Assembly (NCBI GenBank): GCA_021604765.1
Contig: BQJP01000009.1
Span: 1-64,000 of the forward strand
DNA: 64,000 nucleotides
Source of the DNA: Thermodesulfobacteriota bacterium
GTDB taxonomy: Bacteria > Desulfobacterota_D > UBA1144 > Nemesobacterales > UBA2774
Direction: 5' to 3'
Shown here in pieces: positions 43,336 to 47,975 of this stretch (positions are counted from its first letter, which is position 1; the number at the start of each line of letters is the position of its first letter). Position numbers and translations under genes: made by a program. The notes beneath the pieces are model-generated. The model was not told where the DNA came from. It did not search any database and worked only from the letters and a program-made list of their open reading frames with translations.

Positions 43336-45951
43336 ATGAAATTTGACAAATTGACAATAAAAGCGCAAGAAGCAATAGCAGAGGCACAGTCTTTAGCACA
43401 AGAGAGCAACAATCAGGTAGTTGATATACCACATGTATTGATTGCCCTTTTGGCTGAGGATGGTATCCCAGGTCAGGTAATTGCAAAACTCGGAGCCAAC
43501 TTAAATGCAGTTAGAGGACTGGCTCAAGATGAAGTAAATAAATTACCCAAAGTTAAGGGTGACTCAGATCAGGTCTATCTAAGCCGTGAGCTTAGCAAGG
43601 CATTTAAGACTGCAGAAAAAGAAGCTAAGTCGTTAGGCGACGAGTACTTAAGCACAGAGCATTTGTTGCTTGGTATTGTTCAGGATTCAACAGGAGAGCT
43701 GAAAAATGAACTCAAAAGACTTGGCATAACTCGGGATAGTATTTTAAATGTACTGAAGGATGTTCGAGGTAATCAGAATGTTACATCACAGTCTCCTGAA
43801 GATACAATGCAATCTCTTAAGCAGTTTGGAAAGGACTTCACTGAGCTTGCACGCCAGGGAAAGATTGATCCTGTAATCGGGCGTGATGATGAGATCAGGC
43901 GCGTGATACAGGTGCTATCCAGAAGGACCAAAAATAACCCTGTACTAATTGGAGAGCCTGGCGTTGGTAAAACGGCAATCGCAGAAGGACTTGCTCAGAG
44001 GATAGTAAATGGTGATGTTCCTGACGGACTCAAGAATAAGCAGCTTATTGCTCTTGATATTGGGGCATTGGTTGCCGGTGCAAAGTATAGAGGACAATTC
44101 GAAGAGCGCCTAAAGGCCGTTCTTAAAGAAGTCACCGATTCTGATGGTCAGATAATTCTCTTTATAGATGAGATTCATACTGTTGTCGGAGCAGGTGCTA
44201 CTGAGGGCGCAATGGATGCGTCTAATATGTTAAAGCCTGCGTTAGCACGTGGCGAGCTTCACTGTATTGGTGCTACTACTCTTGATGAGTTTAGAAAATA
44301 CATAGAAAAAGATGCTGCGCTTGAAAGGCGTTTCCAACAAGTGTTTGTGGACGAGCCTTCAGTTGAAGAGACGATTTCGATTCTACGCGGACTTAAAGAA
44401 AAGTATGAAGTCCATCATGGGGTCAAGATAAAAGACGAGGCTCTTATCGCGGCAGGTGTTTTATCTAACCGATACATTACAGGAAGGTTCTTGCCTGATA
44501 AAGCAGTCGATCTTATTGATGAAGCTGCTGCGAGGCTTAAAATGGAAATTGATTCCATGCCTACAGAAATAGATGAGATTGAAAGACGTATTATGCAGCT
44601 TGAGATTGAGCGTGAGGCCTTGAAAAAAGAGAAAGATGATGCCTCAAAAGAAAAATTAACAGGGATTGAGCAGAATATAGCCAATTTAAAAGAAGAGTCT
44701 GACACTTTAAAGACTCACTGGAAGCGTGAGAAGGAGCATATTACTGAAATACGGACCGCCAAGGAAGAGATTGATCAGCTCCGCTCCGATGCTGAGAAAG
44801 CTCAGCGTGAGGGGAACCTCTCAACAGCTTCTGAACTCTTATACGGAAGGCTTCCAGACCTTAATGACAAGGTTGAAGAATTAAGTAAAGAGTTGGCTGA
44901 AATTCAGAAAGAGAAGAAGATGCTAAAGGAAGAGGTCGATGCAGACGACATTGCCGCTATCGTAGCCAAGTGGACGGGGGTTCCAGTGTCAAGGCTTCTT
45001 GAAGGTGAGGTTGAGAAGCTGATTCATATGGAAGATAGGCTTCATGAGCGTGTAATCGGTCAGGATGATCCTATAACTTCAGTGTCCAATGCGCTCAGGC
45101 GTTCACGAGCAGGGCTGTCTGATCCTAACAGACCTATTGGTTCCTTCTTGTTCCTTGGACCAACAGGTGTTGGTAAGACAGAGCTTGCAAGAGCGTTGGC
45201 CGAATTTATGTTTGATGACGAGCACGCAATGGTTCGCATAGATATGAGTGAATACATGGAAAAGCATACAGTTTCACGTTTGGTTGGAGCACCTCCAGGA
45301 TACATTGGTTATGAGGAAGGCGGTCAGCTATCAGAGGCTATAAGACGCCGGCCCTACTCTGTCATCCTTTTTGACGAGATAGAAAAAGCTCACACTGATG
45401 TGTTTAACGTGCTTCTTCAGATTTTAGATGATGGTCGTCTGACTGATGGTCAAGGGCGTACTGTTGATTTTAAGAACACTATCATCATTATGACTTCAAA
45501 CCTTGGAAGCGAGTACATTCAGGAGTACGTAGACAGACCTGAGACTATGGCTGAGAGGGTTATGGAGGTTGTAAGGGGCTCATTTAGGCCTGAATTTTTA
45601 AACAGGATCGATGAAACGATCATATTTAAACCTCTAGGGCTCGATGAGATCAAGGAAATTGTTAATATTCAGATCGATCACCTTGCTCACAGGCTTGAAG
45701 AAAGGAAAATTACACTTGATTTAACTGATTCTGCCAAAGAGTTAATCGCAGAGAGCGGATATGATCCAGTTTATGGAGCTAGACCTCTTAAGAGGACGAT
45801 TCAGAAGATGATACAAGATCCTCTTGCTACTGAGATCCTTAAAGGCGATTTCAAGGACGGCGATCATATAGTGGTTGATACAGATAAAGACAACAAATTG
45901 GTTTTAACAAAAGAAGTAAAAACAAAGAAGAAAAAAGCAGCAAACGAATAA
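43336..45951 (+). CDS. clpB: ClpB disaggregase
   Basis: 871 residues, full-length ClpB. N-domain (1-145), first AAA+ with GEPGVGKT at 206-213, the coiled-coil middle domain (about 400-530, [16 protein letters not shown]...), second AAA+ with GPTGVGKT at 608-615 and the SNLGS sensor, and a C-terminal domain. It rescues aggregated proteins with DnaK. AGGAGG precedes ATG 43336. The 298-base upstream region has a CTTGAAA at 43273-43279 but no matching heat-shock -10, so a sigma32 promoter cannot be claimed. Confidence 0.97.
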
Positions 45952-45957
45952 TCATCG

Positions 45958-45995
45958 AAAAAGGCGCTTGTTTAGAGATAAACGGCGCCTTTTTT
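45958..45995 (+). terminator. Intrinsic terminator of clpB
   Basis: AAGGCGC (45961-45967) pairs with GCGCCTT (45985-45991), with an inner GTTTA/TAAAC stem and a GAGA loop, followed by five to six T (45990-45995). Directly downstream of the clpB stop. Confidence 0.9.
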
Positions 45996-46153
45996 CTTTT
46001 ATAAATAAAATGTTACAATAATACTCTCACATAATGTCTTAACTTTAATTTCAAATTTTATCTAAATTCATAAAGTGAATGAGGTTAGCAAGTTAAACTC
46101 TTGTATTAATACTATATTTTGATATTGATAAAGGAGAATAATCGGTTTTTTGA

Positions 46154-46378
46154 TTATGAAATAGATTTAACTATTTCGTCTACAACTTCTTCAGGATTGT
46201 CTGCTTCTGTGATAGCTCTACCGACTACAAGGTAGTCAGCTCCCTTGGAAACTGCTTCGGCTGGGGTAGTAACCATCTTTTGATCGTGATTTGTTGTTCT
46301 AGGGCGTATGCCAGGAACTACTAATGTGAATCTATCACCAAATTCCTTTCTTAAAGTTGCTACTTCAACTTCTGAATA
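46154..46378. repeat. Direct repeat copy 1 (pyrF 3' end)
   Basis: Ungapped match to 47253-47477. 46182-46267 is identical over 86 bases; the flanking parts diverge (about 14 differences in the next about 110 bases). The copies are 1099 bases apart and in the same orientation, bracketing the sulfotransferase gene. Confidence 0.9.
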
Positions 46379-46399
46379 CAACAGTAAGTAGATATTCAA
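46154..46399 (-). pseudogene. Truncated duplicate of the pyrF 3' end
   Basis: The frame carries the last about 75 codons of pyrF: EVEVATLRKEFGDRFTLVVPGIRPRTTNHDQKMVTTPAEAVSKGADYLVVGRAITEADNPEEVV and its stop aligned with that of the intact gene. The sequence before it (MNIYLLLYS) is unrelated to pyrF. It lacks the TIM-barrel N-terminal two thirds and the DLKFHDIP active site, so it cannot be functional. It lies at the far side of the sulfotransferase gene from intact pyrF (see the repeats). Confidence 0.9.
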
Positions 46400-46491
46400 T
46401 TATTCTATTGAAATAGAGATTCTTATCAATAGTTGCTAACACTTTTGTATTTCGAAACGTATTTAATTATAATACATTTCGGAAGATAATA

Positions 46492-47256
46492 ATGAGTCAA
46501 AAGTTATCGTTAAAGTTTATAAGATATGCAAGTAATGCTCGAAAAAGCCTCTCTTATATAATAAGAAAGCCTGATTTGTCAGAAAATCGTTTTGTTATAC
46601 TAGGTCGAGGAAGAACGGGTAGCACGGCACTGGTCAACCTGTTGAATAATGTAGATGGTGTTCAGTGCGATGATGAGATCCTTCGATATAAACTTCCTTT
46701 CCCCAAGCATCATATTCTTTCAAAATGTACAGAAAGTAGCGAAAAAACATATGGCTTCAAATTGATTACATATCAAATCCAGCAGGTTCAAAATATAAGG
46801 GATCATTTAAATTTTATTCAAGATCTCTATAATTCTGGATTTAAAGTTGTTTATACAAAAAGAGATAATATGTTAAAACAAATTATTTCACATATTAGAG
46901 CAAATATTGACGGCTATCATTACAAAAAAAATGAAAATTATAAAGCTAAAAAACTTCTTGTTAATCCAGAAAAAGTTGCTGAGCTTCTTGAGGGAAGCAA
47001 TAAATTTGATAAATACGAGATGGAACTTTTGAGTGGACTGTCTTATTTGCCTTTAAGCTATGAGAACCATCTTGAAAATGAAGAGGTTCATCAATCAACT
47101 GTTGATTTGGTATGTAATTTTCTGGGGATTAAGTCTTCTCAAGTAATAACTGAATACAAAAAGATGTCTCCAAAGAGTCTTAGCGACTCAGTTGAAAATT
47201 ATGCCGAATTACAAGATTTTTTTAGGAATACCAAATATTCGGAGTTTTTTGATTAA
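46492..47256 (+). CDS. Stf0-like sulfotransferase domain protein
   Basis: 254 residues. The PAPS 5'-phosphosulfate-binding motif GRGRTGST is at residues 38-45 (FVILGRGRTGSTALVNLL). The 3'-phosphate region (VYTKRDNMLKQIISHI, with Arg and Ser/Asn) follows, as in Stf0/trehalose and glycolipid sulfotransferases. The acceptor is unknown. GGAAG precedes ATG 46492. The gene runs opposite to pyrF and ends with a 4-base overlap with the pyrF stop. A transfer event is suggested by the flanking pyrF duplication. No recombinase is present. Confidence 0.78.
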   Translation: MSQKLSLKFIRYASNARKSLSYIIRKPDLSENRFVILGRGRTGSTALVNLLNNVDGVQCDDEILRYKLPFPKHHILSKCTESSEKTYGFKLITYQIQQVQNIRDHLNFIQDLYNSGFKVVYTKRDNMLKQIISHIRANIDGYHYKKNENYKAKKLLVNPEKVAELLEGSNKFDKYEMELLSGLSYLPLSYENHLENEEVHQSTVDLVCNFLGIKSSQVITEYKKMSPKSLSDSVENYAELQDFFRNTKYSEFFD

Positions 47257-47477
47257 GAGATAGATAAAACTATTGAATCAACAACTTCTTCAGGATTGTC
47301 TGCTTCTGTGATAGCTCTACCGACTACAAGGTAGTCAGCTCCCTTGGAAACTGCTTCGGCTGGGGTGGTTACCCTCTTTTGATCATGATTTGTTGTTCCA
47401 GGACGTATGCCAGGAACTACTAATGTGAATCTATTGCCAAATTCTTTCCTTAAAGCTTCAACTTCAACTCCGGAACA
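47253..47477. repeat. Direct repeat copy 2 (3' end of intact pyrF)
   Basis: Partner of 46154-46378. The 86-base identical block is 47281-47366. It begins at the stop codon of intact pyrF. Confidence 0.9.
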
Positions 47478-47975
47478 TACCAGCCCGTCAACACAAGCTT
47501 TTTCGGCTAATCCTGCTAGGTTTAATACTGTATCTTGGGTGGAAGTAGAGATACCTATTTGCTCTAGGCTCTTTTTGTCATGGCTGGTTAAAACTGTTAC
47601 TCCTAAAACTAAAGGTTTAGGATAAGAAAGCTTCTCTGCTTCCTCTTTTACGACGTCAGAAACTGCTTTCATCATCTCAAAACCGCCCAAAGTGTGAATT
47701 GTGAACATATTTGCCCCAAAACGAACACTCTGACGGGCTGTTTTTTCGACAGTTGAAGGAATATCATGAAATTTGAGGTCTAAAAATACATTTACGCCTA
47801 AGTTCGAGAATTCTTTAAGGCCTTCAGAGCCTGAATTTAAGAAAAGTATCGGGCCAACCTTAAAAGTTCTAATTTTATTCTTTAATGTTTCAACCCAATT
47901 TAGAGCAATTTCGTGCTCGGGAAAGTCTAGGGCAAGAATAATTCTTTCTTCAGGTTTTAGGTCTGGTCTTTTCAT
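47253..47975 (-). CDS. pyrF: Orotidine 5'-phosphate decarboxylase
   Basis: 240 residues. The active-site motif DLKFHDIPSTVEKTA, the VPGIRPGTTNHDQKRVTTPAEA phosphate-binding loop, and the GRAITEADNPEEVVD end are typical. It makes UMP, feeding the same pathway as PyrG in this window. Its 3' 225 bases are duplicated at 46154-46378, but the gene itself is complete. ATG 47975. Upstream neighbour proS is on the same strand. Confidence 0.96.
   Translation of the reverse strand: MKRPDLKPEERIILALDFPEHEIALNWVETLKNKIRTFKVGPILFLNSGSEGLKEFSNLGVNVFLDLKFHDIPSTVEKTARQSVRFGANMFTIHTLGGFEMMKAVSDVVKEEAEKLSYPKPLVLGVTVLTSHDKKSLEQIGISTSTQDTVLNLAGLAEKACVDGLVCSGVEVEALRKEFGNRFTLVVPGIRPGTTNHDQKRVTTPAEAVSKGADYLVVGRAITEADNPEEVVDSIVLSIS

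Follow-up and report, generated by a model that had tools for sequence, protein, structure and literature searches.

In the uncultured Dadabacteria examined here, single foreign genes without a recombinase of their own are repeatedly inserted behind ordinary genes; because the incoming DNA brings a fresh end for the host gene, that gene remains functional, with its former end left behind on the far side of the insert. We analysed a 64,000-nt stretch of the source genome G000 (the window), in which one such insert lies behind pyrF, together with relatives of the same genus (among them G002, G003, G004, G005 and G006) and of other groups, nearly all of them metagenome assemblies. Our comparisons demonstrated insertion, empty sites and different cargo in relatives, and recurrence at other genes. 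The pyrF locus is probably (with a probability of about 0.55) a single-gene cassette captured by integrase-free recombination, through a single crossover of a short fragment. Two points that an earlier reading of the window from its letters only (the sequence-only reading) could not have seen are supported by our data, namely that pyrF is one instance of a process that recurs and that the findings can be explained without invoking a recombinase.

Table 1. Features of the clpB-pyrF region in the window
Feature	Position	Strand	Remarks
clpB, conserved flanking gene, convergent with pyrF	43336..45951	+	
Terminator-like hairpin after clpB	~45965-46000		
pyrF 3' end, stranded and truncated (old end), decaying	46154..46384	-	conserved residues changed, 5' part absent
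86-nt core, stranded pyrF copy	46182..46267	-	identical to 47281-47366; putative crossover region
Segment inserted between the repeat copies	46385..47243	.	recombinase gene absent
Cargo gene, Stf0-like sulfotransferase, 254 aa	46492..47256	+	absent from every other congener genome compared
Final 28 nt of intact pyrF	47253..47280	-	8 differences from the stranded copy; further from relatives than the stranded copy; probably the end delivered by the cassette
86-nt core, intact pyrF copy	47281..47366	-	identical to 46182-46267
pyrF, intact (orotidine 5'-phosphate decarboxylase)	47975..47253	-	240 aa; OMPdecase, E=2.8e-54; chimeric in the present reading

The sequence-only reading had described a pyrF 3' end duplicated around one sulfotransferase gene, and we recovered this arrangement as a direct repeat of 240 nt (46145-46384 and 47244-47483; 89% identical), with intact pyrF on one side and, on the other, a decayed end that adjoins the clpB terminator. 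Its further statement that the copies share an 86-base identical core and lie 1099 bases apart proved accurate as well. More specifically, when the two copies were aligned over 231 nt, their 26 mismatches were distributed as 18 in pyrF nt 493-609, 0 in nt 610-695 (86 nt) and 8 in nt 696-723, and a mismatch-free run of this length, given 26 mismatches in 231 positions, is not due to chance (p ~1e-4 by permutation). Over the last segment, the stranded copy was closer than the intact copy to most of the nine relatives compared, which marks the tail of intact pyrF as the odd one. Over the first segment, congeners were 85-91% identical to the intact copy and 73-79% identical to the stranded copy. 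This divergent-identical-divergent pattern points to a crossover inside the core, by which the intact gene would consist of a native 5' part and a foreign 3' part, and the stranded copy of a foreign or decayed 5' part and a native 3' part. From pyrF alone, it cannot be told whether the stranded 5' part is decayed or foreign, as the donor lineages are unsampled. Among the changes of the stranded copy at conserved positions is R201M, which affects a residue invariant in ten relatives. We rejected a tRNA or tmRNA gene as the insertion target, the only RNA gene that ARAGORN found in the 64-kb window being a tmRNA at 37.4-37.8 kb.

The cargo gene is the single ORF between the two copies, and its stop codon overlaps that of pyrF. 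Consistent with what the sequence-only reading had reported, we found no integrase or transposase among the ORFs of the inserted segment. The cargo protein matched Pfam family Sulfotransfer_3 with E=0.0016 and 19.2 bits, under the cut-off of 27, and the best fold match of its predicted model (medium confidence, mean pLDDT of 69.7) was Stf0 1tex (E=1.3e-5, probability of 1.00, with a TM-score of only 0.45). We regard it as sulfotransferase-like, i.e., probably a remote sulfotransferase that is weak by sequence and Stf0 by predicted fold. No homologue of the cargo was found in the other congeners; the nearest Dadabacteria homologues are 36% identical and located elsewhere. A phage origin was rejected after 0 matches among 50,697 phage records. 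As to composition, the G+C content of the cargo (31-33%) was indeed below the 40-47% of most neighbouring coding DNA, but it is weak evidence of foreign origin because the intergenic DNA here is just as low.

Comparison of the clpB-pyrF interval across relatives bore out both the empty site and the varied cargo that the sequence-only reading had proposed to look for. In congeners G002 and G006, the interval is empty (~190 nt and ~240 nt, respectively) and lacks a second pyrF copy. Four other genomes carry pyrF remnants of their own: in congener G005, pyrF is followed by a GIY-YIG nuclease gene, a pyrF remnant and an Mrr-like nuclease gene; in G007 (another genus), the remnant lies amid short repeats; in G009 (another genus), two remnants divide three stacked inserts that include a DUF433/DUF5615 pair and a GIY-YIG gene; and in G022 (another family), the remnant lies past apparent toxin-antitoxin genes, on the contig that bears clpB. 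In congener G004, the interval holds a gene for a 352-aa secreted-type protein, with no remnant visible. The starting points of the pyrF remnants were -231, -124, -93, -68, -60 and -57. The clpB-pyrF interval is best explained as one hotspot of the capture process, since an insert placed between convergent genes would damage neither of them. In six genomes that have both genes, clpB and pyrF are found close to the ends of different contigs; variation within the population is a possible reason, although the breaks are not proof of it. We did not find pyrF in assemblies G001, G003, G011, G015, G030 and G034, which are 86-98% complete; here, a variable locus may have been lost in assembly.

The origin of a restored gene end could be read most directly at a second locus of the source genome (site B), where a neurotransmitter-gated-channel-like (ion-channel-like) gene lies behind a PaaK-like gene (named by eye; no Pfam match). 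This cassette is common to G000 and G002, with 92% nucleotide identity in the cargo gene, and is absent from G006, G004 and G003. Between 230 and 30 nt ahead of the stop, the host genes of G000 and G002 had 72% identity, which rose to 97% over the last 30 nt and was 94% beyond. The stranded end in G000, together with 55 nt downstream, matched the empty site of G006 at 82% identity, and the DNA after the restored stop was unrelated to that site (42%). Behind the G002 remnant lies the 77-aa ORF that is also present at the empty site of G004. A restored end shared with G002 and a stranded end matching G006 mean that the cassette carried a replacement end; target-site duplication is thereby excluded at site B, and we rejected it there. 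Judged from these alignments, the site B cassette supplied approximately the last 30 nt of its host gene and displaced the native end. G000 and G002 have different right-hand junctions, which would be expected from independent joining of the fragment ends. The proposal of the sequence-only reading that the insertion restored the gene end is thus supported, directly at site B and, for pyrF, through the divergent-identical-divergent pattern.

To find loci of this kind, we scanned for genes whose 3' end alone recurs nearby, a search to which inserts without a remnant are invisible. In ~1.4 Mb of the source genome (~42% of it), at least four further single-gene inserts were detected, each accompanied by a duplication of the 3' end of its host gene: besides site B, a DUF1254/DUF1214 gene behind the gene for a 318-aa protein (site A), an SDR gene behind a TrxB-like gene named by eye (site C), and a gene for a 91-aa product behind comM (site D). 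Relatives showed inserts behind comM in G002, with a two-gene cargo that differs from that of site D, and behind arsC in G003, with a transporter as cargo. In G005, the channel-like gene of site B was found behind comM, indicating that one cargo can be joined to different host genes. Inserts measured ~0.5-2.7 kb and duplications ~45 to 231 nt. For the mirror image, in which only the 5' end of a gene is repeated, upstream and outside any ORF, the scanned Dadabacteria DNA gave a single instance, which sits between tandem paralogues. In pyrF neighbourhoods of other phyla, totalling 453 kb, no duplicated 3' or 5' gene ends were detected, a comparison that is only indicative since the control loci were short. 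A candidate sixth site (G000 C7 26790/29502) was rejected because the common tail is an IPTL-CTERM-like sorting signal that several other matches also have. Two host genes contain identical or nearly identical tracts. G001 and G006 hardly differ over the final 93 nt of the site A host gene (L271, L272), with the whole gene at 77% and the DNA after it unrelated; in arsC, an 86-nt block (nt 201-286) is identical in G003, G005 and G006, and the rest of the gene diverges (L275:1002-1358 versus L263, L260). These tracts could have been left by earlier captures whose ends were similar, or could mark a cut site.

For the favoured mechanism, the sequence of events would be as follows. A fragment from a related lineage, containing the 3' part of a donor pyrF and the neighbouring sulfotransferase gene, would enter the cell, and its ends would be joined into a circle, the simplest route before recombination. 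A single crossover within the 3' end of the resident pyrF would then yield, in order, the native 5' part, the crossover, the donor 3' end, the cargo, the upstream piece of donor pyrF and the displaced native end, which would subsequently decay. We infer that pyrF took the same course as site B, that the recombination was of the RecA type, and that the fragment was circularised. The same process has probably acted on many genes of the genus; the sizes of the inserts would mirror those of the fragments, and the preference for 3' ends would be what selection leaves, because most other insertions break the host gene. Of the 7 genus genomes, 5 encode a homologue of ComEC, a protein required for DNA uptake; ComEC is also found in non-competent species, and natural competence of these bacteria is only putative. 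Laboratory work has documented small circularised DNA that inserted through a single crossover and thereby duplicated a portion of a gene, and an E. coli study that sought homology-facilitated illegitimate recombination (HFIR) obtained duplications, rather than deletions, in most clones (PMC3240628). Other features also count against the favoured mechanism. A plain single crossover does not predict cores of 70-86 nt that are identical while both flanks diverge, as in pyrF and arsC; these would need a conversion tract or re-copying. The arsC core, identical in three species with diverged flanks, could hint at a recognised site, and some remnants of only ~45-60 nt are short for RecA recombination.

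Several known systems share traits with these loci. SCC elements at rlmH are characterized by a restored gene 3' end, direct repeats, tandem stacking and a single-copy essential host gene. The same four traits link our loci to the ssrA-specific islands of Dehalococcoides and to cis-mobilizable elements (PMC3146451), and at the loci described here we indeed found a restored gene end and direct repeats at both boundaries; in contrast to those elements, no recombinase was found, a fixed core is absent, and the cargo is usually one or two genes. In the minimal mobile elements of Neisseria, a given pair of conserved genes likewise encloses varying whole-gene cassettes, without mobility genes (PMC3082526), and the clpB-pyrF interval does so with empty sites in G002 and G006, cargo in G000, G004 and G009, and an insert behind pyrF in G005. 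Unlike in Neisseria, the host 3' end is here duplicated and replaced, and several unrelated genes serve as host. As to homologous recombination in the flanking genes, host 3' ends are mosaic, but the outer flank of site B is native to each recipient. Integrase-free hotspots of horizontal gene transfer (Oliveira et al. 2017, PMC5635113) also lack mobile-element genes and adjoin a core gene with mosaic sequence, but their model is a double crossover in both flanks, whereas our evidence points to a single crossover in one gene end. Insertion by HFIR or by a single crossover of a circularised fragment resembles our case in involving ~1 kb of DNA with homology at one end only and a target gene duplicated in part (PMC3240628), but the classic HFIR product has a deletion and no duplication, and the events described here are natural and recurrent. 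We saw a duplication at every detected site, with the proviso that remnant-free sites would escape the scan. In its scar, the locus would thus work like an ssrA-type island, and in its lack of machinery, like minimal mobile elements and integrase-free hotspots. Term searches of the literature returned no paper on pyrF ends as integration sites and no title or abstract describing this kind of scar.

A possible, if rather unlikely, alternative is that the cassettes are non-autonomous integrative elements, for which a recombinase encoded elsewhere uses host 3' ends as attachment sites to insert, stack and excise them, like cis-mobilizable elements and SCC-like islands. Such elements would account for the restored 3' ends with direct repeats at both ends, for the cores in pyrF and arsC that are identical while their ends diverge, and for the tandem stacking with two pyrF remnants in G009, as in the Dehalococcoides islands (PMC3146451); in addition, there are ~14 clear tyrosine recombinase matches in the source genome. 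However, none of the 11 recombinase contigs or contig stretches checked had a duplicated gene end (0/11). Moreover, no cassette contained a recombinase, the pyrF breakpoints are spread from -231 to -57 so that the fixed-core test failed, and the six unrelated host gene ends have no common recognition motif beyond chance, observations that together speak against a dedicated recombinase. The strand-exchange region of site-specific recombinases is also much shorter than 70-86 nt, the length of the identical tracts, which far exceeds it. A related and more doubtful possibility is a dedicated system in which a nuclease or recombinase acting in trans inserts, stacks and swaps single-gene cassettes, the 3' end of the host gene (pyrF, comM, arsC or other) serving as the address, with GIY-YIG nucleases as candidates. 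We kept the nuclease-driven version because GIY-YIG genes recur close to these sites.

If the cassette and the stranded end had pre-existed in a donor and been swapped in whole by a double crossover between flanking core genes, as for minimal mobile elements, the duplication would simply have been inherited and would carry no information on how the cassette reached the source genome. The clpB-pyrF interval fits that definition, being bounded by two conserved genes with varied whole-gene cassettes between them, and hotspots devoid of mobile elements provide well-documented examples of such exchange (PMC5635113). We nevertheless consider it improbable: at site B, the raised identity begins within 30 nt of the host stop, the stranded ends are native to each recipient (G000 and G002), so that the outer flank was not swapped, and the origin of the duplicated ends is left unexplained. 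The two direct copies that flank each insert might otherwise represent a very long target-site duplication made by a transposon or other insertion, in which both ends are the host's own and one has decayed. Although pyrF alone could still follow such a course, it is contradicted at site B, where the ends were never copies of each other, and given duplication lengths that vary from ~45 to 231 nt and the absence of a transposase we judge it very improbable. We find it scarcely credible that strain variants of the pyrF region were misjoined in metagenome assembly or binned together as a chimera. While nearly all compared genomes are metagenome assemblies, several of them interrupted within the clpB-pyrF interval, independent assemblies show the pattern again, some on contigs as long as 720 and 770 kb, the same cassette is accompanied by native remnants in two species, and the remnants must be old because they are decayed at conserved residues.

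How integrase-free hotspots acquire genes is an open question, for which the accepted idea is a double crossover in flanking core genes. At the loci described here the scar is still readable as a donor-derived host end, cargo and displaced native end, so that the incoming DNA, the place of the crossover and the foreign end can be reconstructed gene by gene. A gene 3' end duplicated ~1 kb downstream provides a simple signature for captures in any genome. In addition, these scars suggest that a core biosynthetic gene is rebuilt repeatedly from foreign pieces with its reading frame kept.

Several further features were observed in these genomes. Small GIY-YIG nuclease genes adjoin pyrF remnants at L034 and L037 (the pyrF loci of G005 and G009, respectively) and also occur at L188 and L152, near site B in G006 and, in degenerate form, behind clpB in G030; some of them are flanked by palindromes like GTCACCCTGAACTTGTTTCAGGGTCT. 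A second, more distant homologue of the channel-like cargo of site B (L168:1125-1961; 35%) is encoded by the other strand of the contig that carries site B, at a distance of ~8 kb. Contigs C1, C2 and C7 of G000 (e.g., L167, L082) encode many secreted proteins with a common IPTL-CTERM-like tail (VPTLSEWGLIAMA...RRR), often in neighbouring genes. Three consecutive tyrosine recombinase genes, resembling a recombinase-in-trio element, occupy 120-3404 of L232, a short contig (G000:C133). Finally, in G002 an element of ~25 kb interrupts comM close to its Walker A region (L264:192-1817; G002:C9:26595-53686), and a large serine recombinase-like gene lies directly ahead of the second comM half.
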